Part shown: in pieces, positions 36,371 through 61,910 of the stretch
How positions within the stretch are numbered: the stretch's first letter is position 1
Layout of the letters: the number at the start of each line of letters is the position of its first letter
Source of the DNA: Bradyrhizobium sp. CCBAU 53421
GTDB taxonomy: Bacteria; Pseudomonadota; Alphaproteobacteria; Rhizobiales; Xanthobacteraceae
Length of the DNA stretch: 64,000 nucleotides
Assembly (NCBI RefSeq): GCF_015291625.1
Contig: NZ_CP030047.1
Location: forward strand, 3,224,001 to 3,288,000
Direction of reading: 5' to 3'
Notes under the pieces: generated by a model
Seen by the model: only the letters and a program-made list of their open reading frames with translations
Databases searched by the model: none
Told to the model about the DNA's origin: nothing
Made by a program: the position numbers and the translations under genes

Positions 36371-36376
36371 CGCACG

Positions 36377-37147
36377 ATGTCCGGAGCGATTCTGCAGCTG
36401 CGCGACGTGTCCCTGTCGTTCAAGGGAATCAAGGCGCTCAATGCGCTGAGTTTCGAGGTCGCACGGGGCGAGATCTGTGCGCTGATCGGTCCGAACGGGG
36501 CCGGCAAGAGCTCGCTGTTGAACATCATCAATGGAGTCTATCGGGCCGACAGCGGCAGCGTTGTCTTCGACGGCCAGCAGTTCGTTCGCATCCGCCCCGC
36601 CCGTGCCGCGCACCTGGGCGTTGGCCGGACCTTCCAGCACAACGCGCTGTTCAGGCAACTCAGCGTTCTCGACAACGTGCTGGCGGGGCTCATCCGGCGC
36701 AGCCGGACGACGCTCATCGAGCACGCCTTTGGCGTTGGCCGCGACCGCAGCGAGACGCACGAGTTCAGCCGCCGGGCGGACGAGATCATCGATTTTCTGG
36801 ATCTCACCAGGCACCGGGACACGGTGGCGTCGACCCTTCCTTACGGCGTTCAGAAGCGGGTCGATCTCGCACGAGCGCTGGTCGGCCGTCCGAGCCTGCT
36901 GCTGCTCGACGAGCCAATGGCCGGGATGAACCAGGACGAGAAGCATGAGATGAGCCGATTCATCCTGGAGGCCAACCGCACGCTGGGCACCACGATTGTG
37001 CTCATCGAGCACGACATGAACGTCGTCATGGGACTCTCGCATCACGTCGTCGTGCTCGACTACGGCCGCAAGGTCGGTGACGGCACCCCTGAGGAGGTAC
37101 GCAAGAACCCCGACGTGATCGCGGCCTATCTGGGCACGGTGCATTGA
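36377..37147 (+). CDS. ABC transporter ATPase, LivG type
   Basis: A 256-residue ATPase of branched-chain-amino-acid-type importers: Walker A GPNGAGKSS, signature LPYGVQKRVDLARAL, Walker B LLLLDEPMAGMN, and the characteristic C-terminal YLGT. Substrate in this cluster is probably an organic sulfur compound or related monooxygenase substrate rather than an amino acid (inference from neighbours). Confidence 0.9.
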   Translation: MSGAILQLRDVSLSFKGIKALNALSFEVARGEICALIGPNGAGKSSLLNIINGVYRADSGSVVFDGQQFVRIRPARAAHLGVGRTFQHNALFRQLSVLDNVLAGLIRRSRTTLIEHAFGVGRDRSETHEFSRRADEIIDFLDLTRHRDTVASTLPYGVQKRVDLARALVGRPSLLLLDEPMAGMNQDEKHEMSRFILEANRTLGTTIVLIEHDMNVVMGLSHHVVVLDYGRKVGDGTPEEVRKNPDVIAAYLGTVH

Positions 37148-37154
37148 GGTCCAG

Positions 37155-38036: not shown

Positions 38037-38039
38037 AGC

Positions 38040-39098: not shown

Positions 39099-39159
39099 TG
39101 TCGCGTACCACGTGCGAGGATCAAACGTAAGTTCTGTAGTCATATGGAGGGGTAAGCAG

Positions 39160-40515
39160 ATGTCTTTGCGAAAACAAGAGATGCGGATGCGGGTCGTGAG
39201 CAAGGTGTTGGGGCTGGCGGCACTCGGTCTGTCGGTCGTTGGCACCGCCGCCTCGGCGGAAGATGCGAAAACGCAATATTTCCCGCTCGCGACCTTTCGC
39301 GTCGGAGCCTATGCCTCGAGCGGCATTCCGGTCTGGGCCGGCGAGATCGACTATTTCCGCTACATCAACGAGGTGGAGGGCGGCATCAATGGGATCAAGC
39401 TGGTCTGGGACGAATGCGAGACCAATTGGGAAGTCGAGAAGGGCGTCGAGTGCTACGAACGGGTAAAGGCGGGTAAGAATGGGTCGGCCGTTCCGATCTT
39501 CCTGCCGCATGGCGATCCGATCTCGAAGGCGCTGACCGAGAAATCGGTGGCCGACAAGATTCCGCTGGTGACCATCGCCTACGGTCGCACCGAAGCGATC
39601 GATGGGCGGGTCTTTCCTTACAGCTTCCCCGTCGTTTTCAGCTTCTGGAGCGAAGCGTCCTCGGCGGTCAATTTCATCGCGGAAAAGGTCGGCGGCAAGG
39701 ACAAGCTGAAAGGTCTCAAGATCGCGACCGTCTATCACGACTCGCCGTACGGCAAGGAGACCCAGGTTCCGCTCGCCCACCTTGCCAAGACCTACGGCTT
39801 TGAGGACATCCAGATTCCGGTGCCGCATCCGGGCAATGAACAATCGGCGCAGTGGGCCAAGATCCGTCAGCTCAAGCCTGACTGGGTGTTCCTGCGCGGC
39901 TGGGGCGTGATGACACCGGTTGCGATTAAGACCGCGGCCAAGGTGGGCTTCCCGGTCGATCATATCATTGGTGGCATCTGGTCGGGCTCGGAAGAAGATG
40001 TCCGTCCGGCGGGTACCGTCGCCAAGGGCTACCTTGCAATCACGCCATTTCCGGCTGGCGCCAATTTCGAGATCCACCAGAAGCTCAAGAAGTACGTTCT
40101 CGACAAAGGTCTGAGCGATCTCAAGGATCCGAAGAGCTTCGGCTCGGTCTACTACAATTCCGGTGTCGACGAGGCGATCGTTGCGGTCGAGGCAATTCGC
40201 ACCGCCCAAGCGCATTTCGGCGTGCGGCCGATCAATGGTGAGGAAGCGCAGTGGGGCCTCGAGCACCTTGACCTCTCCGAGAAGCGGCTCGCGGAAATCG
40301 GCGCGACCGGCCTCCAGCAGCCCCTGAAGTTGTCGGCCAAGGACCACGAGGGCGGTGGCGCCGGCAAGGTGCTGCAGTGGGATGGCGAGAAGTGGAATGT
40401 GGTGTCGGACGGCTGGGTGAAATCCGATCGTGATCTGTTGCTGCCGCTGATCTATGAGCGCGCTGCCGCCTACGCCAAGGAGAAGGGCATCACGCCGCGC
40501 GATGCCACCAACTGA
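39160..40515 (+). CDS. ABC transporter substrate-binding protein, LivK type
   Basis: A 451-residue periplasmic binding protein of the leucine-binding fold. Signal peptide (VVSKVLGLAALGLSVVGTAASA) ends near residue 33; the mature part begins EDAKTQYFPL and has FRYINEVEGGINGIKLVWDE and IATVYHDSPYGKETQ. Start 39160 is set by GGAGGGG upstream. The larger size than LivK and the YFPLATFRVG start are recalled from binding proteins of urea- or aromatic-type transporters; ligand unknown. Confidence 0.88.
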   Translation: MSLRKQEMRMRVVSKVLGLAALGLSVVGTAASAEDAKTQYFPLATFRVGAYASSGIPVWAGEIDYFRYINEVEGGINGIKLVWDECETNWEVEKGVECYERVKAGKNGSAVPIFLPHGDPISKALTEKSVADKIPLVTIAYGRTEAIDGRVFPYSFPVVFSFWSEASSAVNFIAEKVGGKDKLKGLKIATVYHDSPYGKETQVPLAHLAKTYGFEDIQIPVPHPGNEQSAQWAKIRQLKPDWVFLRGWGVMTPVAIKTAAKVGFPVDHIIGGIWSGSEEDVRPAGTVAKGYLAITPFPAGANFEIHQKLKKYVLDKGLSDLKDPKSFGSVYYNSGVDEAIVAVEAIRTAQAHFGVRPINGEEAQWGLEHLDLSEKRLAEIGATGLQQPLKLSAKDHEGGGAGKVLQWDGEKWNVVSDGWVKSDRDLLLPLIYERAAAYAKEKGITPRDATN

Positions 40516-40533
40516 GGTGGCCGAGGGATCGCC

Positions 40534-41328
40534 ATGACCACGTCTCAATTTCTCGACGTCGACAACATCGAGGTTCTATACGGTCACGCGATCCTGGCCT
40601 TGCGCGGTGTATCGCTCAGGGTCGAACAAGGGTCGATCGTTGCTCTTCTCGGCGCCAATGGCGCCGGGAAGACGACGACGCTGAAGGCGATCTCGAACCT
40701 GCTCGCGTCCGAGCGCGGCCACTTGAGCCGTGGCGCGATCACCTGGCGCGGCGAGGTGACCAACCGTCTCGATCCGGCCGATCTTGTGGCCAGGGGCGTC
40801 GTCCAGGTTCTCGAAGGCCGCCACGTCTTTCCTCAGCTTACGGTCGAGGAGAATCTGCTCAGTGGCGGCTTTGTGCGCCGGCCGAGCCGTCGTGCGCTCG
40901 CCGAGGATCTCGATCGTATCTACGGCTGGTTTCCGCGCCTGAAGCAGCGCCGCAGGGCTCGTTGTGGCCTGACCTCGGGCGGCGAGCAGCAGATGGTCGC
41001 GATCGGGCGAGCACTGATGACGCGCCCGACGCTCGTGCTGCTCGATGAGCCCTCGATGGGGCTGGCGCCGATTATCGTGGAAGAGATCTTCCAGATCATC
41101 CGCGACCTCAATCGGAACGAGGGCGTCAGCTTCCTCCTGGCTGAGCAGAACGCGCATCTCGTCCTGCGGTTTGCCGACCACGGCTATGTCCTCGAGAACG
41201 GACGGGTGGCCGCATCAGGCACGGCGGCCGAACTCGCAGAACGCGACGATGTCGCCGAATTCTATCTGGGTGGTGCGGCAACCGGAATGGTGGCTGCCGC
41301 AGAGCCTGTCCAAACGGCAATCAGTTAG
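40534..41328 (+). CDS. ABC transporter ATPase, LivF type
   Basis: A 264-residue ATPase with Walker A GANGAGKTT, signature LTSGGEQQMVAIGRAL and Walker B LVLLDEPSMGLAP, matching LivF. It lies 18 bases after the binding-protein gene and 15 before the SfnG-like gene, so it is in the same operon. Confidence 0.9.
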   Translation: MTTSQFLDVDNIEVLYGHAILALRGVSLRVEQGSIVALLGANGAGKTTTLKAISNLLASERGHLSRGAITWRGEVTNRLDPADLVARGVVQVLEGRHVFPQLTVEENLLSGGFVRRPSRRALAEDLDRIYGWFPRLKQRRRARCGLTSGGEQQMVAIGRALMTRPTLVLLDEPSMGLAPIIVEEIFQIIRDLNRNEGVSFLLAEQNAHLVLRFADHGYVLENGRVAASGTAAELAERDDVAEFYLGGAATGMVAAAEPVQTAIS

Positions 41329-41343
41329 TGGGAGCAGCGCGTC

Positions 41344-42429
41344 ATGGCAATTCGCTTCGGATACTGGATGCCGCTCGGCAGTGGCGGCTTTGTCATCAGC
41401 AACGTTCCGCAGCGGACTGATTGGACCCTCGACTACAACGCCGGGCTCGCGCGCGAGGCCGAGGATCTCGGCTTCGAATACGGGCTGGCGCCGGCGCGCT
41501 TCATTGCGAGCCACGGCTGGGAGCTGCAGCAGGAGGCCATCACCTGCACCGCGGTGCTTTCGGCCCAGACCAGCCGGCTGAAGCTCATCAGCGCGATCCA
41601 CACCGGCTTCTGGCATCCCGCCATGATCGCGAAGGTGGGAGCCACCATCGATGTCTATTCCAAGGGGCGGTTTGCAATCAACATCCTGACCGGCTGGTTC
41701 AAGGACGAATTTCGCGCGTTCGGCGAGCCCTGGCTGGAGCACGACGAACGCTACCGCCGCTCGGAAGAGTTCATCCAGGTGCTCAAGGGCCTGTGGACTC
41801 GGGATCGTTTCACCTTCAAGGGCGACTTCTACAGCATCAATGACGCATGGTTGAAGCCGAGGCCGATCTCGCAACCGTATCCGGAGATCTTCCAGGGCGG
41901 CAATTCCAAGGCAGCGCGCCGGATGGCGGCGAAATATTCGGATTGGTATTTTCTCAACGGCACCACCGTGGAAGGCGCCAAGCAGCAGATCGACGAGGTC
42001 CGTGCGCTCGCCAAGGCGAAGGGCCGCACGGTGAAGTTCGGGCTCAACGGCTTCGTCATCCAGCGGCCGACCGAGCAGGAAGCGCTCGACCAGCTCGAAG
42101 CGATCATCGCAGGCGCCGACCCGGAGATCGTTAAGGCCTTCGCGGAGCAGGTGAAGCAGGCGGGCGCATCGACCGCCGACAAGATCGGGATGTGGGCCGA
42201 TTCGAACCATGCTAACCTGGTGCAGCCCAATGACGGCTTCAAGACCCGTCTCTTCGGTCCTCCCGAGCTGATCGCCGAGCGCATCCGTGCCTATGAAGCT
42301 ATCGGCGTCGACATGATCCTGTGTGCCTTCCTGAACTTCACCGACGAATTGCCGGCCTCCGGCCGCGAGGTCATCCCGCTGCTGAAACCGGCAAAGGCCG
42401 ATCGGGCGTATGAGCCCGAGCGTGCTTGA
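41344..42429 (+). CDS. sfnG: FMNH2-dependent dimethylsulfone-type monooxygenase (SfnG-like)
   Basis: A 361-residue luciferase-like monooxygenase of the SfnG/SsuD group: FGYWMPLGSGGFVISNVPQR, LISAIHTGFWHPAMIAKVGA, ILTGWFKDEFRAFGEPWLEH and FLNFTDELPASGREVIP. SfnG converts dimethylsulfone to methanesulfinate with FMNH2 from a separate reductase. Family match is strong; the exact substrate is inferred. It is the last gene of the transporter operon begun at 34949. Confidence 0.82.
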   Translation: MAIRFGYWMPLGSGGFVISNVPQRTDWTLDYNAGLAREAEDLGFEYGLAPARFIASHGWELQQEAITCTAVLSAQTSRLKLISAIHTGFWHPAMIAKVGATIDVYSKGRFAINILTGWFKDEFRAFGEPWLEHDERYRRSEEFIQVLKGLWTRDRFTFKGDFYSINDAWLKPRPISQPYPEIFQGGNSKAARRMAAKYSDWYFLNGTTVEGAKQQIDEVRALAKAKGRTVKFGLNGFVIQRPTEQEALDQLEAIIAGADPEIVKAFAEQVKQAGASTADKIGMWADSNHANLVQPNDGFKTRLFGPPELIAERIRAYEAIGVDMILCAFLNFTDELPASGREVIPLLKPAKADRAYEPERA

Positions 42430-47343: not shown

Positions 47344-48594
47344 ATGTCTGAAGCATACATCATCGACGCGGTCCGCACGCCGCGCGGCATCGGCAAGCCG
47401 GGCAAGGGAGCGCTGTCGCACCTGCACCCGCAGCAGCTGGCGGCAACCGTGCTCGGCGCGATCAAGGAGCGCAACAAGCTCGATACCTCGACCGTCGACG
47501 ACATCATCTGGTCGACCTCGACCCAGGAAGGCAAGCAGGGCGGCGATCTCGGACGCATGTCGGCGCTCGCGGCGGGATACGACATCAACGCCAGCGGCAC
47601 GACGCTGGATCGCTTCTGCGGCGGCGGCATCACCTCGGTGAACCTCGCGGCAGCATCGGTGATGTCGGGGATGGAAGATTGCGTCATCGCCGGCGGCACC
47701 GAGATGATGAGCTATCAGCAGACCCTCGCAGCCGAACGCTCCAAGGCGGGGCAGCCGGCGCGCATGATGGGTTCGGGCAATCCGGCGCTTGACGAAATTC
47801 ACCCGCAGTCGCACCAGGGCGTGTGCGGCGACGCCATCGCCACGCGTGAGGGCATCAGCCGCGAAGCCTGCGATGCGCTGGCGCTGGTCAGCCAGCAGCG
47901 CGCCAAGCGGGCAATAGATGAAGGCCGTTTCGCCAAGTCGGTAATCCCCGTGCTCAACGACGACGGCAGCGTCGCCCTCGGTCGTGAGGAATTCCCGCGC
48001 CCCGAGACCACGGCCGAAGGCCTTGCTTCGCTGAAGCCGAGCTTCGAGCAGCTTGCCGATTTCGATCTCGGCAACGGCGTGACCTTCAAGAAGCAGATCC
48101 AGCGCCGCTACCCGGGTCTCGAGTGGAAGGGCGTGCATCATGCCGGCAACAGCTCGGGCGTGGTGGACGGCGCCGCCGCGGTGCTGATCACGTCGAAGGA
48201 ATATGCCGAGAAGCACGGCCTCAAGCCGCGCGGCCGCATCGTGGCCTATGCCAATCAGGGCGATGATCCGACACTGATGCTCAATGCGCCGGTCCCGGCG
48301 GCGAAGAAGGTTCTCGCCAAGGCCGGCCTGACCAAGGACGACATCGACGTCTGGGAGATCAACGAGGCCTTCGCGGTGGTCGCCGAGAAGTTCATCCGCG
48401 ATCTCGAGCTGGATCGCGAGAAGGTCAACATCAATGGCGGCTCGATCGCGCTCGGCCATCCGATCGGCGCCACCGGATCGATCCTGATCGGTACCGCGCT
48501 CGACGAGCTCGAGCGGAGCGGCGGACGTTATGGCTTGGTTACCATGTGCGCCGCCGGCGGCATGGCGCCGGCCATCATCATCGAACGCATCTGA
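47344..48594 (+). CDS. Acetyl-CoA acyltransferase (thiolase)
   Basis: A 416-residue thiolase II-type enzyme: nucleophile Cys92 in DRFCGGGITS, HHAGNSSGVVDGAAAVLI, the NEAFAVV motif, the catalytic His in NGGSIALGHPIGATG and the second Cys in VTMCAAGGMAPA. It cleaves 3-ketoacyl-CoA or condenses acetyl-CoA. First of four closely placed beta-oxidation-type genes; 18 bases separate it from the SDR gene. Confidence 0.92.
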   Translation: MSEAYIIDAVRTPRGIGKPGKGALSHLHPQQLAATVLGAIKERNKLDTSTVDDIIWSTSTQEGKQGGDLGRMSALAAGYDINASGTTLDRFCGGGITSVNLAAASVMSGMEDCVIAGGTEMMSYQQTLAAERSKAGQPARMMGSGNPALDEIHPQSHQGVCGDAIATREGISREACDALALVSQQRAKRAIDEGRFAKSVIPVLNDDGSVALGREEFPRPETTAEGLASLKPSFEQLADFDLGNGVTFKKQIQRRYPGLEWKGVHHAGNSSGVVDGAAAVLITSKEYAEKHGLKPRGRIVAYANQGDDPTLMLNAPVPAAKKVLAKAGLTKDDIDVWEINEAFAVVAEKFIRDLELDREKVNINGGSIALGHPIGATGSILIGTALDELERSGGRYGLVTMCAAGGMAPAIIIERI

Positions 48595-48612
48595 TCGCGA
48601 AAGGATAGTGCC

Positions 48613-49395
<783 letters not shown>

Positions 49396-49419
49396 CCCAA
49401 CCCGCAGGAGACCATAGCG

Positions 49420-50187
49420 ATGTCCGAAGAAACTCCGGTCCTCACTGAAGTCCGCGGACCTATTCTGATCATCACGCTGAACCGGCCGGAAGCCAAGAAC
49501 GCCGCCAACCTCGCCCTCTCCAAGGGCGTGGCCGCGGCGATCGACCGGCTCGACGCCGACGATGCCCTGAGCGTCGGCATCATCACCGGCGCCGGCGGCA
49601 CGTTCTGCTCGGGCATGGATCTCAAGGGGTTCCTGAAGGGCGAGCGGCCGTCGATCCCCGGCCGTGGCTTCGCCGGCCTCACCGAGGCGCCGCCGAAGAA
49701 GCCGCTGATCGCGGCCGTCGACGGCTACGCGCTCGCCGGCGGGATGGAGATCGCGCTGTCGTGCGACATGATCGTCGCCAACCGCAACGCCAAGTTCGGC
49801 ATCCCCGAGGTGAAACGCGGGCTGGCAGCCGCAGCCGGCGGGCTGATCCGCATGCCGCGCCAGATGCCGTTCCGCGTGGCGATGGAGTTCGCTTTGACGG
49901 GCGAGTTCTTCGGCGCACAGCGCGCCTATGAGCTCGGCATCATCAACCGCGTGACCGATGGGCCGGCGCTCGATGCCGCGCTCGAGCTCGCGGCCGCGAT
50001 CGGCGCCAATGGCCCGCTCGCGGTCAAGGCATCCAAGCAGGTGATCGTCGAATCCCGGCTCTGGCCGGAAGACCAGATGTGGAAGAAGCAGCAGGAAATC
50101 GTCGGTCCTGTCTTCGTCTCCGAGGATGCCCGCGAGGGCGCGGCTGCCTTCGCGGAAAAACGCGCGCCGAACTGGAAGGGCAAGTAA
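49420..50187 (+). CDS. Enoyl-CoA hydratase/crotonase family
   Basis: A 255-residue crotonase-fold protein: TLNRPEAKNAANLALSKGV, the oxyanion block GAGGTFCSGMDLKGF, and ALAGGMEIALSCDMIVA with IPEVKRGLAAAAGG, where Glu is a likely catalytic residue. Hydrates enoyl-CoA in the pathway with the neighbours. A terminator follows 20 bases after the stop. Confidence 0.9.
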   Translation: MSEETPVLTEVRGPILIITLNRPEAKNAANLALSKGVAAAIDRLDADDALSVGIITGAGGTFCSGMDLKGFLKGERPSIPGRGFAGLTEAPPKKPLIAAVDGYALAGGMEIALSCDMIVANRNAKFGIPEVKRGLAAAAGGLIRMPRQMPFRVAMEFALTGEFFGAQRAYELGIINRVTDGPALDAALELAAAIGANGPLAVKASKQVIVESRLWPEDQMWKKQQEIVGPVFVSEDAREGAAAFAEKRAPNWKGK

Positions 50188-50207
50188 GGCAGCGACTGTC
50201 TCGACAA

Positions 50208-50254
50208 CGGAGCGCCGGTTTTGATTGCAGCAGAACCGGCGCTCCGATTTTTTT
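50208..50254 (+). terminator. Intrinsic terminator after crotonase gene
   Basis: GGAGCGCCGGTT (50209-50220), 13-base loop, AACCGGCGCTCC (50234-50245), then GATTTTTTT. Perfect 12-base stem. It separates the first three genes from the acyl-CoA dehydrogenase. Confidence 0.88.
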
Positions 50255-50315
50255 GTGAAGGCCGTGCCTGCTACACCGGCCGGTTTCCAGATCGATTGAG
50301 AGCGCTATTGGGTGA

Positions 50316-51479
50316 ATGATGCGCAGCTTTACCGAAGACCAGGTCATCTTCCGCGACTCCTACCGCAAGTTCCTCGCCAGCGAGATCGCGCCTTACATGG
50401 AGGAGTGGCGGGAGGCCGGCATCGTCGACCGCAGCGCGTTCAAGAAGGCCGGCGACCTCGGCTTCCTGATGATCTGGCCAGAAGAGAAATATGGCGGGAT
50501 GGGCGACGAGGACTTCCGCTATGAGCAGATCATCATCGAGGAGACCGCGCGCTCCGGCTGCAAGGGCTGGTTCAACACGCTGCACAGCCGCCTGGTCGGC
50601 TCCTATTTCAAGCGCTTCGGCACCGAGGAGCAGCGCGACCGCTTCCTGCCCAAATGCGTCAGCGGCGAGACGATCCTGGCGATCGCGATGACCGAGCCCG
50701 GCGCGGGCTCGGACCTCGCGGGCATGCGGACGACAGCGGAAGACAAGGGCGATCATTTCCTGCTCAACGGCTCGAAGACCTACATCTCCAACGGAATCAA
50801 TTCCGACGTGGTGATCGTGGCCGCCAGGCTTGCAGGCGCCGAGAAGAAGCACGCCATGGTGCTCTTGATCGTCGAGCGCGGCATGGAGGGCTTCGAGCGC
50901 GGCCGCAATCTCAAGAAGATGGGCATGCCGGCGCAGGACACCGCCGAACTGTTCTTCCAGAACGTGAAGGTGCCCAAGGCCAACGTGCTCGGAGAACCGG
51001 GCAGGGGCTTCTACTATCTCATGGAGGGCCTTGCCGAGGAGCGGCTGATTTCCGCGGTCGGATCGATCGCCAATGGCCGCAAGGCGTTCGACATCACGCG
51101 CGCTTACGTGATGGATCGCAAGCTGTTTGGAAAGCCGCTCGCCGAACAGCAGAACACCCAGTTCCGCATGGCGGAGATGGATGCCGAAATCGACCTCGTG
51201 CAGGTCTATGTCGATCACTGCGTGGCCGAGCACAATGCCGGACGCCTGACCAGCAATATGGGCGCCAAGGCCAAGATGATGTCGTCGGAAGTCGAGTGGA
51301 AGATGCTCGACCTCGGCGTACAGCTGCACGGCGGCGCGGGCTATATGGATGAATATCCGATCAGCCGGATGTTCACCGACGCGCGCGTCAACCGGATCCT
51401 GGCGGGAAGCTCAGAAGTGATGCGGCTGATCATCGGCCGCGATGTCTTCTCGGAGCACTACAAGAGCATTCTGGACTAG
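50316..51479 (+). CDS. Acyl-CoA dehydrogenase
   Basis: A 387-residue acyl-CoA dehydrogenase: YGGMGDEDFRYEQIIIEETA, AMTEPGAGSDLAGMRTTAED, HFLLNGSKTYISNGINSDVV, QLHGGAGYMDEYPISRMFTD and the C-terminal ILAGSSEVMRLIIGRDVF with the FAD-contact Arg. Forms the enoyl-CoA for the crotonase. It has its own start region downstream of the terminator, so it may be a separate transcript. Confidence 0.92.
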   Translation: MMRSFTEDQVIFRDSYRKFLASEIAPYMEEWREAGIVDRSAFKKAGDLGFLMIWPEEKYGGMGDEDFRYEQIIIEETARSGCKGWFNTLHSRLVGSYFKRFGTEEQRDRFLPKCVSGETILAIAMTEPGAGSDLAGMRTTAEDKGDHFLLNGSKTYISNGINSDVVIVAARLAGAEKKHAMVLLIVERGMEGFERGRNLKKMGMPAQDTAELFFQNVKVPKANVLGEPGRGFYYLMEGLAEERLISAVGSIANGRKAFDITRAYVMDRKLFGKPLAEQQNTQFRMAEMDAEIDLVQVYVDHCVAEHNAGRLTSNMGAKAKMMSSEVEWKMLDLGVQLHGGAGYMDEYPISRMFTDARVNRILAGSSEVMRLIIGRDVFSEHYKSILD

Positions 51480-51613: not shown

Positions 51614-52291
51614 TCAGCCGCGCGCCTGCCGCAGCGGCTCGCGCGCATGCTCCTTCGAGCGCATCAACGCGTCGACGAAGATCGGCTCCCAGGAGCGGAT
51701 GTGACCGCGCAGCAGGGTCGGCAGTGCCTCGGTCTCGCCGGCCAGCGCGAGCTCGATCAGCCGGTAGTGCTCGGGCACCGAGGCCTGCTGCCGTTCGAGG
51801 CCGGCGCGTGAGCTGATGCCGTAGAGCCGCATCTTGTCGCGCAGGCCCATCACCATCTCGGTCAAGAGTTCGTTGCCGGCGGCTGCGACGAATTCGCGGT
51901 GATAGTTGCGATCGGCTTCCAGATAGAGCTGGACGTCGTCGGTCTCGACGGCCCTGGCGATCTGGTCGGCCCAGTCGCGCACGACGGCTAGATCCTTTGG
52001 CGGATTGGCGGCGACCAGTACTGCGGCGTGCAGCTCCAGCACCTCGCGCATGTCGAACAGGTTGCGCAACTCGGTCAGTGACGGCTCCACCACCTTGAAG
52101 CCACGGTTGCGCATCGGCTCGACCAGGCCGCCGCGGCTGAGCTCGAGCAGTGCTTCGCGCACCGGCGTCGAGGAGACGCCGAGGCTCGCCGCAAGACTCG
52201 GCACCGAATACATCGTGCCGGGAAGGCTCTGCCCGGAAATGATCTCGGCGCGCACCCGCTGCAGCACCTGTTCGCGCAAATTCTGGTCCAT
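51614..52291 (-). CDS. GntR-family regulator with FCD domain
   Basis: A 225-residue regulator: N-terminal winged helix (YSVPSLAASLGVSSTPVREA then LLELSRGGLVEPMRNRGFKV) and C-terminal all-helical FCD domain (LFDMREVLELHAAVLVAANP, DRNYHREFVAAAGNELLTEM, HYRLIELALAGETEAL) with the D-x4-R and His residues that bind metal and carboxylate ligands. Divergent from the molybdopterin gene; the operator-like palindrome at 52382 lies between them. Confidence 0.92.
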   Translation of the reverse strand: MDQNLREQVLQRVRAEIISGQSLPGTMYSVPSLAASLGVSSTPVREALLELSRGGLVEPMRNRGFKVVEPSLTELRNLFDMREVLELHAAVLVAANPPKDLAVVRDWADQIARAVETDDVQLYLEADRNYHREFVAAAGNELLTEMVMGLRDKMRLYGISSRAGLERQQASVPEHYRLIELALAGETEALPTLLRGHIRSWEPIFVDALMRSKEHAREPLRQARG

Positions 52292-52381
52292 GGGTGGTCG
52301 CGCCGCCTCTCGTTGGGAACCCCGATTCGTCCCCTGATTATTACTTAGCCTTGACGGGACCGGTAGCGTATGACGTAAATG

Positions 52382-52395
52382 TGTAACGCATTACA
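52382..52395. promoter_or_regulatory. Palindromic operator candidate between GntR and Mo-enzyme genes
   Basis: TGTAA-CGCA-TTACA, five-base perfect arms, centred 40-53 bases before the GTG of the molybdopterin gene and about 90 from the GntR start. Short inverted repeats of this kind are usual for FCD-type GntR regulators. Confidence 0.5.
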
Positions 52396-52434: not shown

Positions 52435-55400
52435 GTGAAACAGCGGCTCCCCGGCTATTGCACGCTTTGTCGCTCGCGCTGCGGTTCTGTCACCGTGGTC
52501 GAGGACGGGCGTCTTGTCGGCGTAGAGGTATTGAATAACCACCCGACCGGCGGCGCACTTTGCGCCAAGGGCCGGGCCGCCCCCGAAATCGTCGCGAGCC
52601 CGCGCCGTCTGACCGTTCCGTTGAAGCGGACCCGGCCGCGCGATGCCGCCGATCCCGGCTGGGTCGAGGTGTCCTGGGACGAGGCCCTGACCGAGATCGC
52701 CGACCGGCTCCGCAGGATCCGCGCCGAGAGCGGCGCCGAGGCGGTGGCGTTCGGCGTCACCACGCCAAGCGGCACGCCGATGGTCGACAGCTTCGAGTGG
52801 GTCGAGCGCTTCATCCGCGGCTTCGGCAGTCCCAACCTGATCTACGCGGTCGAGATCTGCGGCTGGCACAAGGACTACGCGCACGCGCTGACCTTCGGCC
52901 GCGGTATCGGCTTTCCCGATTACGACAATGCCGATGCGATCATCCTGTGGGGCCACAACCCCGCGCGCACCTGGCTCGCCCAGGCGACGCGGATTGCGGA
53001 CGCGCGGCGGCGCGGCGCCAAGGTCGTCGTTGTCGATCCCAAGCCGAACGGCTCGGGCCAGCAGGCCGATCTCTGGCTGCGCGTCCGCCCGGGCGCCGAT
53101 GGCGCACTTGCGATGGGCGCGATCCGTCATCTCATCGCGACCGGCAGCTTCGATGCAGACTTCGTCGACGCATGGACCAATGGATCGCTGCTGGTCGATC
53201 GCGCCACCGGGTGCCTCCTGCGCGCCGATGCGTTGTGGCCGGATGGCGCGCCTGAGGCTTTCGTTCGTCTCGATGCGTCGGGCTCGCCCGTGCCTTGCGA
53301 CACCCGCTACGCGCCGAAGCGCGGCGGCCAGCTTCGCGGCGCGCTCTCGATCCGTGCATGCGACGGCCGGATGATCTCGGCGGCAACCGCGTTCGAATTG
53401 CTGGCCGAGCGCGCCGCGCCCTATACGCCGGCGCGCGTCGCGGAGTTGACCTGGCTGCGCATCGAGGACGTCGACGCCTTCAACGCGCTGCTCGCCGCCC
53501 GGCCGCGGCTCGCCTATCATTCCTGGACCGGCGTCGGCCAGCACACCAACGCCACTGCGATCGAGCGCGCGATCGCGTCGCTTTATGCGCTGACCGGCGC
53601 CTGCGATCGGCCCGGCGGAAACCGCTGGCCGGTGCCGCCGCCGACACGCCCCCTCAACGACTACAATATCCTGCCGCCGGAGCAGCAGGCCAAGGCGCTC
53701 GGCATTGCCGAACTGCCGCTCGGCCCGCCGGCGAAGGGCTGGATCACGGCGCGCGATTTCAGCCGGGCCGTGCTCGAGGGCGAGCCTTACCGGGTGCGTG
53801 CACTGGTCGCCTTCGGCACCAACTTCGTCGTGTCGCAGGGCCATTCGGCGCGTAACCGCGCGGCGCTGAACGCGCTGGAATTTCAGGTTCATATCGACAT
53901 GTTCATGAACCCGACCGCGGAGAGCGCCGATTTCGTTCTGCCGGCCAGCACGCCGTGGGAGCGCGACGCGCTGAAGATCGGGTTCGAGATCACGCAGGAG
54001 GCTGTCGAGACCGTGCAGTTCCGCCCACGCATGGTCGAGCCGATCGGCGAAGTGAAGGCCGATTACGAGATCGCCGCCGCACTCGCGCTCAAGCTTGGGA
54101 TGGAGAACTTGTTCTTCGGCGGCGACATCGAGGCCGGCTGGAATTATCAGCTGGCGCCGCTCGGCATCGATGTCGAGGATTTGCGCGACCATCCCGAAGG
54201 ACGCCGCTTCCCGCAGGTCTTCCGCGATGAAAAATACGCCATGACGCGCGAGGACGGAACGGCGGCGGGCTTTGCGACACCGACACGCCGTGTTGAGATC
54301 TATTCGGAGCTGATGCTGGGACACGGGCATGACCCGTTGCCCGATCACGTCGAACCGGTCGGCAGCCCGCTCACGCCGGCGGCGGACGAACGCTTCCCGC
54401 TTGTACTCTCTACCGCCAAGAGCGGCTGGTTCGTTCACTCCTCGTGGCGGCATGTCGCCTCGCTACGGCGCAAGTCGCCCGATCCGGCCGTCGAGATCAG
54501 CCCGCAACTCGCCGCGCGGCGCGGACTTGTGGAGGGCGACTGGGCCGTGGTGGAAACGCACGGCGGAGCCGTGCGCCTGAAAGTACGCCTCAATGCGGCG
54601 CTCGACGACCGCGTCGTCGTCGCCGAATTCGGCTGGTGGGAGGATTGCCCGCCGCTCGGCCGCGAACGTTCGGCGGCGACAGGCGGCCTCACGCGCAACA
54701 TCAACGCGGTGCTGCACGACGATGCGCGCGATCCGGTCAGCGGCTCAGTCCCGCTGCGCGCGATCGTCTGCAATATCAGGCGGGACGACGTGGCCAGCCG
54801 CGGCGTCTGGAGCGGCCGGCGGCGGTTCGTGGTCGGCGAGCGCACCGTCGAGGCGGACAACGTTATCGCCCTCAGCCTGCGGCCGCTTGACGGTGGCCCG
54901 CTGCCCGACTTCCTGCCGGGGCAACATGTGATGACCGCGTTGCCTGATGCCGCAGAGGCGCGCGCCTATTCGTTGACCGGATCGGGCGATCAGCCACAAG
55001 CGCTATCGATCGCGGTGAAGGGACGTTTCCTGAACGAGGCTCGCAGCGCCGACGCGCCGTTTTTCATGCCGGATCGTCTGCATGGCCTTGCCGTTGGCGA
55101 CCAGGTTCTGCTGGAGCCGCCGGGCGGCATCTTCACGCCGCCATTGAAGGGGGCCCGGCCGCTGGTCTTCCTCGCCGCCGGCATCGGCATCACGCCGTTC
55201 ATCAGCCACCTCGAGACGTTGCAACAGGTGGCGCAACAGGATCGCGTTGCCGAAGTCGTGCTGCTGCACGGCTGCCGCAGCAGCCGCGAGCATCCGTTTG
55301 CGCGGCGGCTTGCGGAGCTGGAAGTCGGCACGTCGGGGCTAACGCGGATAACGTTCTATTCGGCGCCGCTCGCGCAGGACGCGGTCGCTTCGTCGTCGTT

Positions 55401-55836
55401 GCGCAAGGGGCGGATCGATCTCGAACAGGTCAAGCCATGGTTGGCGCGCCGCCCGCTGGTCTACATCTGCGGCTCGCCGGATTTCGTTGCGGCGCAGATC
55501 GAGGCTGCCGTGGCGCTCGGTATCCCGCGGTTCGACATCTTCGCCGAAAGCTTCGTGTCGCCGCCGCCGGTGCCGAGCGACCTTGCGCCGCGAACCATCC
55601 GGCTTGCGGGCAGCAAGCAGAGCTTTGCGTGGGGACCGGAGCAGGGGACGCTGCTCGACGCCGCAAGCGCGGCGGGCATCGCATTGCCGAGCGGCTGCCG
55701 TGTCGGGCAGTGCGAAAGCTGCGCCGTCGAGGTGGTCGACGGGGAATTCACCCATCTCGGCCCCGTCGACGGCAGCGACGGGCAGTGCCTCACCTGCCAG
55801 GCCGTGCCGCTCACCGATCTCACGCTCGCACTTTGA
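52435..55836 (+). CDS. Molybdopterin oxidoreductase fused to FAD/NAD reductase and [2Fe-2S] ferredoxin
   Basis: A 1133-residue three-part redox enzyme. Residues 1-760: DMSO-reductase-family domain with a [4Fe-4S] site (C9-x2-C12-x3-C16-x26-C43), a likely Mo-ligand Cys142 (EICGWHKD), bis-MGD blocks such as ILWGHNPARTW and ATPTRRVEIYS, and a C-terminal MGD-binding part. Residues about 785-1040: ferredoxin-NADP-reductase-like domain (EARAYSLTGSGD, VFLAAGIGITPFISHLETL, VYICGSPDFV). Residues about 1060-1133: plant-type [2Fe-2S] (C1088, C1093, C1096, C1118 or C1121). It could run electrons from NAD(P)H to the Mo site without partners, or the reverse. Substrate unknown; the fused layout recalls some assimilatory nitrate reductases. 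Starts GTG. Confidence 0.88.
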   Translation: MKQRLPGYCTLCRSRCGSVTVVEDGRLVGVEVLNNHPTGGALCAKGRAAPEIVASPRRLTVPLKRTRPRDAADPGWVEVSWDEALTEIADRLRRIRAESGAEAVAFGVTTPSGTPMVDSFEWVERFIRGFGSPNLIYAVEICGWHKDYAHALTFGRGIGFPDYDNADAIILWGHNPARTWLAQATRIADARRRGAKVVVVDPKPNGSGQQADLWLRVRPGADGALAMGAIRHLIATGSFDADFVDAWTNGSLLVDRATGCLLRADALWPDGAPEAFVRLDASGSPVPCDTRYAPKRGGQLRGALSIRACDGRMISAATAFELLAERAAPYTPARVAELTWLRIEDVDAFNALLAARPRLAYHSWTGVGQHTNATAIERAIASLYALTGACDRPGGNRWPVPPPTRPLNDYNILPPEQQAKALGIAELPLGPPAKGWITARDFSRAVLEGEPYRVRALVAFGTNFVVSQGHSARNRAALNALEFQVHIDMFMNPTAESADFVLPASTPWERDALKIGFEITQEAVETVQFRPRMVEPIGEVKADYEIAAALALKLGMENLFFGGDIEAGWNYQLAPLGIDVEDLRDHPEGRRFPQVFRDEKYAMTREDGTAAGFATPTRRVEIYSELMLGHGHDPLPDHVEPVGSPLTPAADERFPLVLSTAKSGWFVHSSWRHVASLRRKSPDPAVEISPQLAARRGLVEGDWAVVETHGGAVRLKVRLNAALDDRVVVAEFGWWEDCPPLGRERSAATGGLTRNINAVLHDDARDPVSGSVPLRAIVCNIRRDDVASRGVWSGRRRFVVGERTVEADNVIALSLRPLDGGPLPDFLPGQHVMTALPDAAEARAYSLTGSGDQPQALSIAVKGRFLNEARSADAPFFMPDRLHGLAVGDQVLLEPPGGIFTPPLKGARPLVFLAAGIGITPFISHLETLQQVAQQDRVAEVVLLHGCRSSREHPFARRLAELEVGTSGLTRITFYSAPLAQDAVASSSLRKGRIDLEQVKPWLARRPLVYICGSPDFVAAQIEAAVALGIPRFDIFAESFVSPPPVPSDLAPRTIRLAGSKQSFAWGPEQGTLLDAASAAGIALPSGCRVGQCESCAVEVVDGEFTHLGPVDGSDGQCLTCQAVPLTDLTLAL

Positions 55837-55886
55837 TGACCAACACGATTGAAGGCCAACCGCATCACCGGAAGGGGATCAGATTG

Positions 55887-57341
55887 ATGACGAATGCAAC
55901 GCACGACCAAACCGTAGACTTACGAAAACCCGTCGCGGATAACATCATGGCGCGCTTTTCGCAGGCCCTGGTGGCGTTCGCCGAGCGCTGGTTTCCGGAT
56001 GCGTATGTCTTCGTCCTGATCGCCGTGATCGCGGTGGCCGCAGGCGCGATTCTGCATGGCGGCTCGCCGCTCGCCGTCAGCCGCGCATTCGGCGATGGCT
56101 TCTGGAACCTGATCCCGTTCACGATGCAGATGGCGTTGGTTGCGATCGGCGGCTACGTTGTAGCGATGTCGCCGCCGGTCGCAGCCGTGCTGGCGCGGCT
56201 CGCGAGCGTGCCGAAGACCGGGCGCGGCGCGGTGGTCTTCGTCGGGATGCTGAGCATCTTCCTCTCGCTGCTGAACTGGGGCCTGAGCCTGATCTTCTCC
56301 GGCCTGCTGGTACGGGAAATCGCACGGCGTACCGACATCCGGCTCGACTATCGGGCGGCCGGCGCGGCCGGCTATCTCGGGCTCGGTTGCGGCTTCACCC
56401 TCGGCATCACGTCCTCCGCCGCACAGCTCCAGGCCAATGCCGGCAGCATTCCGGCATCGCTGCTGCCGATCACCGGCGTGATCGGCTTCTCGGAAACCAT
56501 CCTGACCTGGCAGAACATGGTCACCGTCGTGATGGTGAGCGTGGTGTCGGCGGCGATCTGCTATTTCACGACACCGGCGGCGGAGCAGGCGAAGACCGCG
56601 GAAGACCTCGGCGTTGCGCTCGGCGATGATCGCATCGAGGCGAGGAAGCCGGCCCGTCCGGGCGACTGGCTGGAGTTCAGTCCGCTGCTGACGATCCTGA
56701 TCGCGCTGCTTGCCGCCGGCTGGCTGTGGCAGACGTTCCAGTCGGGCAACCCGCTGATCACGCTGTCGGGGCTCAACACCTACAATTTCGTCTTCCTCAT
56801 TCTCGGCATCGTACTGCACTGGCGGCCGCGCAGCCTGATCGAGTCGTTTTCGAAGGCGATGCCGAGCGTCTCCGGCGTGCTGCTGCAGTTTCCGTTCTAT
56901 GCCGGCATCGCGCAGATCCTGACCAAGGTGCCGAACAGCAGCGGCATCACGCTGTCGGACACGATCGCGCACTGGTTCGTCGGAGCGTCCAGCAATTCCA
57001 CCGTGTTTTCATTCCTGGTCGGAATCTATTCGGCGCTGCTCGGCTTCTTCGTGCCGTCGGCCGGCGGAAAGTGGATCATCGAGGCGCCCTACATCATGAA
57101 GGCGGCCAACGACATCGGCGCGCATCTCGGCTGGACGGTGATGGTCTACAACATCGCCGAGACGCTGCCGAACTTCATCAACCCGTTCTGGATGCTGCCG
57201 CTGCTCGGCATCCTCGGCCTGAAGTCGAAAGATCTGATCGGCTACACCTCGGTGCAGTTCTTCATCCACTTCCCGATCGTGATGCTGCTGGCCGCGATCC
57301 TGATGGCGACCTTCACCTATCACCCGCCGATCCTGCCCTGA
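55887..57341 (+). CDS. atoE: Short-chain fatty acid transporter, AtoE family
   Basis: A 484-residue membrane protein of the AtoE (TIGR00366-type) family with about 12 spans: LNWGLSLIFSGLLVREIARR, GAAGYLGLGCGFTLGITSSA, FQFPFYAGI-like LLQFPFYAGIAQILTK, and FFVPSAGGKWIIEAPYIMKA are family blocks. AtoE moves short-chain fatty acids. Start 55887 has AAGGGG upstream; an in-frame ATG at 55836 would overlap the Mo-enzyme stop (TGATG) and add 17 residues. Either way it is in the same operon. Confidence 0.88.
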   Translation: MTNATHDQTVDLRKPVADNIMARFSQALVAFAERWFPDAYVFVLIAVIAVAAGAILHGGSPLAVSRAFGDGFWNLIPFTMQMALVAIGGYVVAMSPPVAAVLARLASVPKTGRGAVVFVGMLSIFLSLLNWGLSLIFSGLLVREIARRTDIRLDYRAAGAAGYLGLGCGFTLGITSSAAQLQANAGSIPASLLPITGVIGFSETILTWQNMVTVVMVSVVSAAICYFTTPAAEQAKTAEDLGVALGDDRIEARKPARPGDWLEFSPLLTILIALLAAGWLWQTFQSGNPLITLSGLNTYNFVFLILGIVLHWRPRSLIESFSKAMPSVSGVLLQFPFYAGIAQILTKVPNSSGITLSDTIAHWFVGASSNSTVFSFLVGIYSALLGFFVPSAGGKWIIEAPYIMKAANDIGAHLGWTVMVYNIAETLPNFINPFWMLPLLGILGLKSKDLIGYTSVQFFIHFPIVMLLAAILMATFTYHPPILP

Positions 57342-58551: not shown

Positions 58552-58844
58552 AGGATTTCCCTTTCATTACAACTTTGACTTGCTCTGGCTATACGTAAGT
58601 TATGCAACGCGGGGACGTCGAACGAAAATAGGTCGTACGGCTCGGGTTGCGCCGTCTGATTTCTCGCGCCTCGACCTACCACTCAAGACTGTATCTCGTC
58701 CAGTTTAGCAACCTCTCGGGTTGGCGCGGATGCAGGCGGACTGCACGTCTGGATTGATAAGCAGTTCCCGATAGGTAATCTCTACCCTAAGCTGCTCACC
58801 GGGATGCTGAGCTGGCGAGATCGCAGCAGCCTTTGAGAGCAGGA

Positions 58845-61800
58845 ATGCTTTGCTTTGCATGCCAATCGACGATCGGAGCGGACGACAATTGGTGCGCCCA
58901 ATGCGGTGCAGCTGTAGCTAAGCGCGTCGATCCCGACAGCGAACAGCGATTTGTGACGATCCTTCGCGCCGACGTGGTCGACTCCACGGGGCTCGTAGCG
59001 GACCTGGACCCGGAAGAGGCCGTCTCACGTCTGGAGCCGGCTTTGGCCGCCATGCGGGGCGCGGTGCGCCAGTTTGGCGGTATCGTCAGCAAGGAATTGG
59101 GCGACGGGCTCGCAGCGGTATTTGGCGCGCCGATCGCTGACGACAACCATGCGCCGCTTGCCTGCCATGCGGCGATCGAGCTCGTTCGACGTATCGGCGG
59201 CTTGGGTGATCCGGCGCTCCAGGTCCGGGTCGGGCTCCATTCGGGACGCGTGGTGACCTACATGGTCGCCAGCGAATATTCCAAGGTCTATGAGATCGGA
59301 GGGGCGGCGCAGCATCTTGCGGCGCGCCTCGAAGCGGTCGCCGGGCCGAACCAGATCTACGCATCCGAGGCGTGTCAGAGCCTGGCCGATGGCAATGTCC
59401 AATTTGACTATCTGGGTCGCAAACAGCTCAAAGGGTTCAGCGAGCCTTTGCCGATCTATCGCGTGACCGGGGCAACCAATGTCTCCAGTTGGCGGGTACG
59501 CAGGGCACGAAGCGTAGCACGGTTCGTCAACCGCGTGGACGAGACCGGGTTGCTCAGGCGGCTGGCGCAAAATGCCGGCCCGAGCCGGCAGACCGCGCTC
59601 CTGATTGGCGATCCCGGCATCGGAAAGTCGCGGCTGGTGCACGAGTTTGTCGATGAGCTCAAGCGCGAGGACTGGCGGCTGGTCCACGCGGAGTGCAGCC
59701 CGAATCTTCAAGGAGCGCCGTTCAGCGCGCTGAAGGCGCTGATGCTGTCGATGCTCGAGGAAACTGCGGCGGACGCCGATATCCTGACCGAGCCTCCGAC
59801 TGCTCTGATCGGCACTGCACGTTCCGCCATCAATGCGGTGCTGGATCGCCCGATATCGGATCCCGAGTGGGGCGAACTGGAGCCGCACGCGCGTGGCCGC
59901 GCGATCAGCGACGCGAGCTGCGCGGTTCTCGAGATGCTGGTCGCTCGCCAGCGCACGGTGATCCTCGTCGAGGATCTGCACTGGATCGATCGCGCCAGCG
60001 AAGCCGTTGTCGCCGCGCTCGCGTCGCTACAGATCCCTGGACTTCTGGTGTTGTTGACCAGCAGACCCAACGGAATTCCGGACTGGATCGCGCGTTGCAA
60101 TGCCGAGATCACCGCGTTGCGGTCGCTCGCCGAGGATGCCGGACGGGAAATGCTTGACGATATCCTGGGGCGGTCCGCGAACATGGCCGATCTGAAGAGC
60201 CGCGTCGTTCTTCATACGGCGAGCGTGCCGCTCTTCATTGAAGAAGTCTGCCGAGGACTCAAGGACAGCGGGATTCTGCGAGGGCATTGGGGTGACCTGG
60301 CGCTGGTGCGTCCGGTCGGCGAGCTCGGTATCCCGAGCAGTATCCAGGGAGTCATCGCGGCGCGTCTGGATCGGGTGTCGAGGGAGGAGCGCTCCCTGTT
60401 GCAGATCGCGGCAGCGCTAGGCCCACGCTCGACGGAAGTTATCCTGCGCGAGGTGTCCGGCCTCCCCGAGCCGGTGCTGCAGCGCTGCCTGGCGGTTCTC
60501 GACCGCTCGGAGTTTCTGGTGAAGATCGATATCGAGCCGGACCGATTGCTCGAGTTTCCGCACGAAATGATCCGCCAGGTCGTCTACGACTCGATGGTCG
60601 AAAAAGTGCGTGAAGGCGTCCACGCGCGCATTCTTGCGACGTTGGAGAGCAATGGAAGCTCGCACGATGAGCCCAGCAAGCTCTGCTATCACGCAATGCG
60701 AGCCAAGGATTGGCAGAAAGCCTTCGCCTACGGCAGAACTGCCGCGCGGAAGAGCCTGGCACGATCGGCATTTGCCGACGCTGCCAACTACTTCGAGATA
60801 GCGATGACCGCGCTCGACAAGACGCCATTCGCTCGCTCGCGCGAAGCGGATGCGGTCGACCTCCGCATCGAGGCGCGCACGGCCTTCATGAGCGCAGGCA
60901 AGGTCGCCGAATGGTTCGATCTCGGAAGAGACGCCGAGGGACGCGCCAACGCAATTGACGATATCGGGCGGAAGGTTGCGGCGATGGCGGTCAGGTCGGG
61001 CGCGCAGAACTTCTATGGCACGCCGATCGAAGCCATCGAAACCGGCGAGGAGGTTGCTCGCCTGGCGGGAGAGTGGGGCAATCCCGGTTGGCTCAACCTT
61101 GCTCAATACAGCCTTGGCCAAGCCTATTTCATTGCCGGGCGCTATCGCGACGCAGAGCAGATGCTGGGACAGGCTTGCCTCCGCCTGTCGGGTCCGGATG
61201 CCAGCGCGCCGCCCGGGACGACGCCTAAAACCCTGGAGCTGCTGTGCTGCATGATGAAGAGCGTGACCCACACGACCTTGGGAGAGATTGATACGGGGGC
61301 CGAGTTTCATCAACGCGCGTCAGCGATCGCCACCGAGAGCAACAGGCCGTTCGATCGTGTTGGCGCCGGCTATAGCGGCGGTTGTCTGGCGCTCGGTCGG
61401 GGCAATCCCGGCGAAGCAGCGGCGATCCTGGAGGACGCTTTTGCCATTACACAAAAGTATGGAATTCGCCTCTTTGTGCCGGTCATCACCTGCCATCTCG
61501 GTATTGCCTATCTGGAACAGGGGCGTCTTGCCGACGCGCGGGTGACGCTCGTCGAAGCTCGAGAGGAAGCCAGATCGGTGGGCTATACCTCGATCGTGCT
61601 GCGTACCTCGATCTATCTGGCACTGGCTCTCAGTCGGCTCGGTGATGTACAGGCTGCGCAGAACATGCTGCGAGAGGCCCGGAATACCGCCCGTCAGCAA
61701 GGATTCTCCGGCCTGGAAGCGGAGGCGTTGTTCGGAGAGGCGGCGGTATCGCCGGCGTCAAATGAGAACGACAGGACTTCCGTTCTCCACCAGTTGCGCG

Positions 61801-61910
61801 CGGCGATCGCGATTGCGTCGAGCAGTGGCACGAAGCCGCTGCTGCATCGCGCCGAAGCGTTGCTGAACGGAATGCTCGCCGATCCCCAGGGAAGCGTCTG
61901 GCGCCACTAG
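58845..61910 (+). CDS. Class III adenylate cyclase with AAA-type ATPase and TPR-like region
   Basis: A 1021-residue signalling protein. A zinc-ribbon (C3-x2-C6 ... C17-x2-C20) precedes a class III cyclase domain (about 35-200) with both metal Asp residues (D43 in RADVVDST, D87 in KELGDGLAAVFG). Then an AAA/STAND ATPase module: Walker A GDPGIGKSRL near 253, Walker B VILVEDLHWIDRASE near 372. Residues 600-1021 are helical repeats of TPR type. The family is large in bradyrhizobia; the trigger is unknown. ATG 58845 starts the zinc-ribbon; TTG 58833 in frame is an alternative. Confidence 0.88.
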   Translation: MLCFACQSTIGADDNWCAQCGAAVAKRVDPDSEQRFVTILRADVVDSTGLVADLDPEEAVSRLEPALAAMRGAVRQFGGIVSKELGDGLAAVFGAPIADDNHAPLACHAAIELVRRIGGLGDPALQVRVGLHSGRVVTYMVASEYSKVYEIGGAAQHLAARLEAVAGPNQIYASEACQSLADGNVQFDYLGRKQLKGFSEPLPIYRVTGATNVSSWRVRRARSVARFVNRVDETGLLRRLAQNAGPSRQTALLIGDPGIGKSRLVHEFVDELKREDWRLVHAECSPNLQGAPFSALKALMLSMLEETAADADILTEPPTALIGTARSAINAVLDRPISDPEWGELEPHARGRAISDASCAVLEMLVARQRTVILVEDLHWIDRASEAVVAALASLQIPGLLVLLTSRPNGIPDWIARCNAEITALRSLAEDAGREMLDDILGRSANMADLKSRVVLHTASVPLFIEEVCRGLKDSGILRGHWGDLALVRPVGELGIPSSIQGVIAARLDRVSREERSLLQIAAALGPRSTEVILREVSGLPEPVLQRCLAVLDRSEFLVKIDIEPDRLLEFPHEMIRQVVYDSMVEKVREGVHARILATLESNGSSHDEPSKLCYHAMRAKDWQKAFAYGRTAARKSLARSAFADAANYFEIAMTALDKTPFARSREADAVDLRIEARTAFMSAGKVAEWFDLGRDAEGRANAIDDIGRKVAAMAVRSGAQNFYGTPIEAIETGEEVARLAGEWGNPGWLNLAQYSLGQAYFIAGRYRDAEQMLGQACLRLSGPDASAPPGTTPKTLELLCCMMKSVTHTTLGEIDTGAEFHQRASAIATESNRPFDRVGAGYSGGCLALGRGNPGEAAAILEDAFAITQKYGIRLFVPVITCHLGIAYLEQGRLADARVTLVEAREEARSVGYTSIVLRTSIYLALALSRLGDVQAAQNMLREARNTARQQGFSGLEAEALFGEAAVSPASNENDRTSVLHQLRAAIAIASSSGTKPLLHRAEALLNGMLADPQGSVWRH

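Follow-up and report, generated by a model that had tools for sequence, protein, structure and literature searches.

A widespread family of molybdoenzymes with a fused flavin/[2Fe-2S] reductase in the acetylene hydratase branch, and its possible role ahead of a ketimine reductase

A stretch of 64,000 nucleotides from Bradyrhizobium sp. CCBAU 53421 (contig NZ_CP030047.1, positions 3,224,001 to 3,288,000; hereafter the window, meaning this whole stretch) encodes a fused oxidoreductase, here called MO, which joins in one polypeptide a [4Fe-4S] and molybdenum-bis-molybdopterin guanine dinucleotide (Mo-bisMGD) part and a flavin, NAD and [2Fe-2S] reductase part. MO represents a family that is real, widespread and uncharacterised in the literature searched, and that exhibits a distinct architecture within the acetylene hydratase branch of molybdoenzymes. 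From the genes that accompany its relatives we tentatively propose, at somewhat less than even likelihood, that MO is a reductase driven by NAD(P)H, converting a nitrogen-ring 2-carboxylate to a cyclic ketimine, ahead of a ketimine reductase of the OCD family.

MO is encoded on the forward strand at 52435..55836 (1133 amino acids, GTG start, with full-length homologues) and comprises two parts, a [4Fe-4S]/bis-MGD molybdopterin part (residues 1-785) and a flavin/NAD/[2Fe-2S] part similar to phthalate dioxygenase reductase (residues ~791-1133). The former begins with the [4Fe-4S] segment (52435..52605, residues 1-57), which contains Cys9, Cys12, Cys16 and Cys43, followed by the molybdopterin domain (52606..54087, residues 58-551), with Cys142 at the position of the Mo ligand and the family motif C-[N/G]-W-H-K-D, and by the dinucleotide-binding domain (54400..54756, residues 656-774). 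The presence of Fe4S4, molybdopterin and dinucleotide-binding domains in this order, all above the Pfam gathering scores and in agreement with the fold, places MO in the MopB/DMSO-reductase superfamily. The latter part contains the flavin and NAD(P) domains (54805..55560, residues ~791-1042), with the motifs RAYS (843-846) and GIGITP (916-921), which we take to be those of flavin/NAD(P) domains, and a plant-type [2Fe-2S] ferredoxin domain (55600..55809, residues 1056-1125); the flavin-NAD-[2Fe-2S] order and the CX4CX2C...C pattern are those of an electron supply of the phthalate dioxygenase reductase type. In fold comparison this part resembles the reductases of oxygenases, which pass electrons from NAD(P)H. 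Because a reductase of this oxygenase-feeding kind is fused to the Mo part and conserved, the step catalysed by MO would be reductive, and MO may act as a cytosolic self-sufficient reductase. The assembly of all four kinds of cofactor sites in one 1133-residue polypeptide had been put forward in an earlier sequence-only reading of this DNA, and was borne out by both domain search and fold comparison.

The best match of the Mo part by sequence, tree and fold (rank 1 in the comparison with VIA-align) is acetylene hydratase. In a maximum likelihood tree of 39 sequences, rooted at the midpoint, the fused and non-fused members of the MO family form one clade (support 98/99), with acetylene hydratase (PDB 2e7z), which sits on a long branch, as the sister (96/92), apart from FdhF, FdnG, NapA, the NasA-like protein of the same genome, DmsA, TorA and NarG; the fused sequences group together with modest support (70/88). 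An assimilatory nitrate reductase with a built-in reductase can hardly be entertained: one plasmid homologue of MO carries the name nasC, but the tree joins MO to acetylene hydratase and not to NapA or the NasA-like protein, the score of MO against the NasC model NF047855 is 135.7 bits versus a cut-off of 1100, and the genome has a separate NasA-like protein (448.5 bits with this model, itself under the cut-off). By model score and tree, MO thus does not look like a nitrate reductase, which agrees with the earlier view that the locus is not devoted to nitrate assimilation, for which phylogeny of the Mo domain had been suggested as a check.

Residue conservation was counted in an alignment of 118 sequences, near-copies and non-fused copies included. 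The cluster cysteines (Cys9, Cys12, Cys16 and Cys43) are retained in 117 sequences, the remaining one being gapped there, Cys142 and Trp144 in all 118, and His145, Lys146 and Asp147 in 114 each, as is Trp180, which is Trp in acetylene hydratase as well. Position 143, next to the Mo ligand, is occupied by Asn (98 sequences) or Gly (20), and never by the His that follows the Mo ligand in formate dehydrogenase alpha; this identity was rejected also on the score with TIGR01591 (221.6 bits versus a cut-off of 666), and that of an S/N-oxide reductase was set aside on model scores and the tree. The counterpart of acetylene hydratase Asp13, beside the cluster residue Cys12, is replaced by Arg in 107 sequences (the MO of the window among them), by Lys in six and by Ile in four of the 117 aligned, one sequence being gapped. 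As stated in the part of a review consulted (PMC12096430), Asp13 is specific to the acetylene hydratase subfamily and its change to Ala abolishes activity. MO was therefore set aside as acetylene hydratase proper, and by the Asp13 test it is a relative and not a member. We also consider it improbable that MO is a non-redox hydratase or dehydratase of this general kind, in which the fused reductase would merely keep the metal reduced while a hydroxy imino acid is dehydrated to Δ1-pyrroline- or Δ1-piperideine-2-carboxylate. The closeness to acetylene hydratase in sequence, tree and fold, the activity of the latter only in the reduced state (same part of PMC12096430) and the pairing of hydroxyproline dehydratases with OCD reductases (in the part of PMC4113996 consulted) speak for such an enzyme, but the essential Asp13 is Arg, Lys or Ile in all 117 sequences that reach the position, and a covalently joined, conserved reductase suggests stoichiometric use of electrons.

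Relatives of MO have been found in Proteobacteria and Actinobacteria. Their hosts are mostly aerobic. Among 242 Bradyrhizobium genomes, 58 have a match at E<=1e-100, with a fused copy in 48 and with only a copy devoid of the reductase in the 10 others (one incomplete). The 48 genomes with a fused copy divide into 26 at 85-100% identity (three in two pieces), 13 at 62-69% and nine whose sole copy is at 48-49% (one incomplete); we refer to the 39 genomes with 62-100% identical MO as group A, and to the 44-49% fused copies as group B. In G101:C20 and G198:C2 the homologue reads as two adjacent frames that meet near residue 731, which may reflect a natural split or a sequence error. The window genome holds, in addition, a non-fused paralogue of the MO clade (G000:C1:2045010-2047385, L049 and L173; 42% identity over residues 4-783). 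A phylum-wide sample yielded a match at E<=1e-80 in five of 398 genomes, the window genome counted. The best 80 of 575 confirmed stretches from a scan of named genomes (hereafter the named loci) include Salinicola, Salinisphaera, Pseudomonas, several Burkholderiales and Photorhabdus, as well as Bradyrhizobium, other Rhizobiales, Rhodococcus, Streptomyces, Amycolatopsis and Mycolicibacterium. Among plasmids, 39 of 72,556 records matched at E<=1e-60, in 26 cases over no less than 80% of the protein. The name molybdopterin-dependent oxidoreductase is given in 22 of these 39, by itself or together with other pieces, and nasC in one. The copy on a Klebsiella plasmid lies near lpxC and def genes, among others; an N-ethylmaleimide-reductase-type gene is found near MO in three of four Photorhabdus loci, and the omega-aminotransferase of one of these (L103) scores 693 bits with the AptA model (cut-off 500).

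In the window, MO is followed on the same strand by a short-chain carboxylate transporter of the AtoE/TIGR00366-like type (55887..57341, 484 amino acids, start picked from homologues), which scores 269.2 bits with PF02667 (gathering score 27) and 266.1 with TIGR00366 (cut-off 575.75). On the other side, and divergent from MO, lies a GntR regulator of the FCD family, recognized by domain match (51614..52291, reverse strand). Fifteen group A loci were taken with long flanks, out of the 38 group A genomes other than that of the window, and 14 of them have both the divergent GntR and the AtoE-type gene, while the last (L071) has neither; these two features of the sequence-only reading are thus supported. 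The element TGTGTAA-CGCA-TTACA (52380..52395, no strand assigned), between gntR and MO, is predicted from its sequence to be a possible operator, and TGTGTAA occurs in nine of the 14 intergenic stretches compared, the window among them, in a count made without a shuffled control.

A further partner emerges among the named loci, in which a gene was counted if it lay at most 3 kb from MO on the same strand. An OCD-family gene is present beside MO in 46 of the 80 and AtoE in 51, both in 38, OCD only in eight, AtoE only in 13, and neither in 21 (five of these short-flanked). Gene order varies (MO-OCD-AtoE, MO-AtoE-OCD, AtoE-MO-OCD), as do the outer genes, so that this is not one frozen block, and the regulator, MO, OCD and AtoE appear to move as a unit. 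Of ~58 loci with an OCD partner, 42 proteins were scanned, the rest being omitted mostly for unclear ends of the open reading frame, and 40 of them match NF004793 at E<=1e-96, the E-value standing in for the cut-off. The remaining two (L099 and L114), which share just 28% identity with the first row, reach 148-149 bits with NF004793 and pass NF045512 (449.7 and 454.3 bits versus 400). Both models are named Δ1-pyrroline-2-/Δ1-piperideine-2-carboxylate reductase; distinct OCD proteins thus pass two models of one function, which suggests a conserved function despite different genes. Proline-ketimine reductases are members of either the OCD or the MLD2 superfamily, according to the part of PMC4113996 consulted. 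An Ldh_2/MLD2 gene next to a non-fused MO (L053, an alphaproteobacterium) was considered as a possible second type of ketimine reductase; it passes NF007504, the malate/lactate/ureidoglycolate dehydrogenase model (342 bits versus 336), and was not used as support. Just upstream of another non-fused relative (L050, 7310-8593) there is a gene with three units of the Rid family, which handles imines. The recurrence of a ketimine reductase, a partner that is missing from the window and hence was out of sight of the sequence-only reading, favours nitrogen-ring acids over short fatty acids, and the small or short-chain organic acid earlier suggested as the substrate class is not supported as stated.

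Two sets of catabolic genes accompany relatives of MO. In Bradyrhizobium relatives, a block encoding HglS (2-oxoadipate dioxygenase/decarboxylase), L-piperidine-6-carboxylate dehydrogenase and an aminotransferase is found beside MO. Few genomes of the genus contain HglS (17 of 242); fused MO occurs in nine of these 17, and in eight of the nine HglS lies at most 10 kb from MO, in groups A and B and in differing arrangements: five group A genomes with the block upstream, one with it on the other side (L071) and two of group B. One genome (G017) holds a second HglS elsewhere. A chance of 0.25% per genome and a p-value of 0.0016 for co-occurrence were calculated with the genomes treated as independent, which is untrue. 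In one block (L070) the aldehyde dehydrogenase passes the L-piperidine-6-carboxylate dehydrogenase model NF050084 (798 bits versus 730) and HglS passes NF049974 (732 versus 550). Within the stretch examined, the group B loci L188 and L189 encode MO, OCD, a solute-binding protein, an AmaA-like oxidase, a LysR regulator, HglS and one more protein of the block; their FAD amine oxidases are nearest to the L-pipecolate oxidase AmaA (463 and 461 bits, under the cut-off of 600). On a Rhodococcus opacus plasmid, GntR, MO, OCD and AtoE are followed within 12 kb by proline dehydrogenase, PruA and an NAD-glutamate dehydrogenase, and the first two of these enzymes are also encoded near MO in a close relative (L130). 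The HglS and Rhodococcus contexts lead from the cyclic ketimine to 2-oxo acids, for six- and five-membered rings, respectively. From the OCD partnership and these downstream contexts, we infer that MO supplies the ketimine and would act just before the ketimine reductase.

In the proposed pathway, the AtoE-type permease, or other transporters in the relatives, would import a nitrogen-ring 2-carboxylate. Electrons would pass from NAD(P)H to the C-terminal flavin, the [2Fe-2S] cluster, the N-terminal [4Fe-4S] cluster and the Mo (or W) bis-MGD, at which pyrrole-2-carboxylate would be reduced to Δ1-pyrroline-2-carboxylate (two electrons) or, alternatively, picolinate to Δ1-piperideine-2-carboxylate (four electrons). 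In their simplest oxidised form, the precursors of these ketimines are pyrrole-2-carboxylate and picolinate. The OCD-family reductase would then yield L-proline or L-pipecolate, and in those Bradyrhizobium that have the six-carbon block, pipecolate would be further processed by the AmaA-like oxidase, piperideine-6-carboxylate dehydrogenase, the aminotransferase and HglS (2-oxoadipate). The exact substrate and the size of its ring are guesses, for the MO of the window above all.

Several observations weigh against this proposal. Aromatic rings that are not activated are difficult to reduce with NAD(P)H, and no MopB enzyme is known to us to do so. In the window, AtoE adjoins MO and no OCD gene does; the only NF004793 match of the genome at E<=1e-20 lies ~0.8 Mb off and scores 301 bits, under the cut-off of 322, and an OCD gene stands beside AtoE in only two of the 15 group A loci. 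The window genome has no match to HglS at E<=1e-80 or to piperideine-6-carboxylate dehydrogenase at E<=1e-100, which makes the six-carbon route doubtful in this strain; for a five-membered-ring substrate ordinary proline catabolism would suffice. Eight of the 17 HglS genomes are without fused MO, in the ninth genome with both (G216) they are on different contigs, and proline genes were seen near MO in just two closely related Rhodococcus. The 21 named loci with neither partner tell the same way, some of them being of a copper/heavy-metal type or close to an omega-aminotransferase gene. The former type, on a Klebsiella plasmid (L164), a Leclercia chromosome and in Alteromonas (L102 and L106 with L164), has common neighbours, which the annotation of L164 gives as CueR regulators and heavy-metal P-type ATPases, and neither OCD nor AtoE adjoins MO there; the latter are the Photorhabdus copies (L103, L118, L122 and L124). 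Relatives devoid of both partners would depend on partners encoded elsewhere or differ in function.

Alternatively, MO would reduce a C-OH or N-O group and not an aromatic ring, as a reductive dehydroxylase or deoxygenase, again giving a ketimine for OCD; its substrate would then be a ring acid that bears a hydroxyl group, a cyclic nitrone or an N-hydroxy imino acid, such as 4-hydroxy-Δ1-pyrroline-2-carboxylate or an N-oxidised pipecolate. The reduction of S- and N-oxides is common in the MopB family, and such a reaction would likewise suit the setting of OCD, amine oxidase and aminoadipate genes. Among the identified neighbour clusters, however, which are the minority, the amine oxidase is the only candidate for making the precursor; it was found in eight loci (seven from Bradyrhizobium, of which two represent a single site, plus one from a different family) in addition to L188 and L189. 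We regard this variant as rather unlikely.

The thiolase, SDR, crotonase and acyl-CoA dehydrogenase set (47344..51479, forward strand, domain and model matches) is a lineage-limited neighbour of MO, beside which it was found only in close copies (~88% identity or more). Its acyl-CoA dehydrogenase occurs in 22 of the 242 genus genomes and stands beside MO in 21 of these, i.e. by 21 of the 26 copies of at least 85% identity. Chance synteny was dropped as an explanation, since few genomes of the genus have the set and, in one lineage, it goes together with MO. This linkage, together with the naming of the AtoE family for short-chain fatty acids, would be expected if MO catabolised a short-chain fatty acid or a related compound by way of the adjacent set. 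However, only five of the 32 loci L049-L080 contained the set, and it was absent from all 80 named, six plasmid and 14 HglS loci, whereas AtoE and OCD persist across phyla, which makes this function very improbable. The association seen in the sequence-only reading is thus genuine in the close copies, but it is a linkage within one lineage, with shared function unproven; here the set may take part in the same pathway or may simply be inherited along with MO.

Elsewhere in the window, we observed an NrfD-type polysulfide-reductase membrane subunit (22545-23891), a branched-chain-type ABC transporter set between two luciferase-like monooxygenases (34871-42429), followed by NMT1-type transporter genes up to 45613, and a large adenylate-cyclase/AAA/TPR protein (58833-61910), whose best NCBIfam match is the TOMM kinase/cyclase (258 bits versus a cut-off of 706). 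Scans of the window for tRNA and Rfam families gave no matches.

None of the titles and abstract openings listed in a search of open-licence papers mentions an enzyme of this kind, and none listed for a picolinate or pyrrole-2-carboxylate reductase looks relevant by title. The part of the review consulted (PMC12096430) states that proteins similar to acetylene hydratase have so far not been characterised biochemically. In this little characterised branch of molybdoenzymes, MO constitutes a widespread sub-branch with its own reductase, so that catalysis could be assayed with one purified protein and NAD(P)H, and the gene partnership provides a testable functional idea, unlike the one advanced earlier. 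The known aerobic routes for nitrogen heteroaromatic acids are, to our knowledge, oxidative or decarboxylating; if the ketimine proposal is true, there would be a reductive entry of these acids into amino-acid metabolism in aerobes. That MO is in full a one-protein, NAD(P)H-fed Mo (or W) enzyme, which dearomatises picolinate or pyrrole-2-carboxylate in bacteria that respire oxygen and thereby opens a short reductive route to pipecolate or proline, encoded in a compact cassette across two phyla, we consider possible, with more doubt than the ketimine step as such.

Phthalate dioxygenase reductase is a free-standing protein that serves a Rieske oxygenase, and we know of no molybdoenzyme in catabolic clusters of the hydroxyproline/proline type. 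In MO, a reductase of the former kind (PDB 2pia) is fused behind a molybdoenzyme, and the OCD partner of MO is the same type of reductase as the OCD or MLD2 ketimine reductases of the latter clusters, as described in the part of PMC4113996 consulted. The catechol dehydroxylases of gut bacteria are described in the consulted part of PMC7028382, by which description alone they were compared, as nearest to acetylene hydratase and as carrying out reductive chemistry, like MO; that part of the paper does not mention a fused reductase, which MO has. The metallopterin-dependent ergothioneine synthase likewise combines an acetylene-hydratase-like module with a second domain in one polypeptide, but, as far as the consulted part of PMC9516567 goes, this domain is a cysteine desulfurase and not a reductase such as that of MO, and the enzyme is confined to anaerobes. 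From acetylene hydratase of Pelobacter (Syntrophotalea) acetylenicus itself (PDB 2e7z), MO differs in the Arg, Lys or Ile that replaces Asp13, in the fused flavin/[2Fe-2S] reductase, in its mostly aerobic hosts and in the amino-acid genes alongside.

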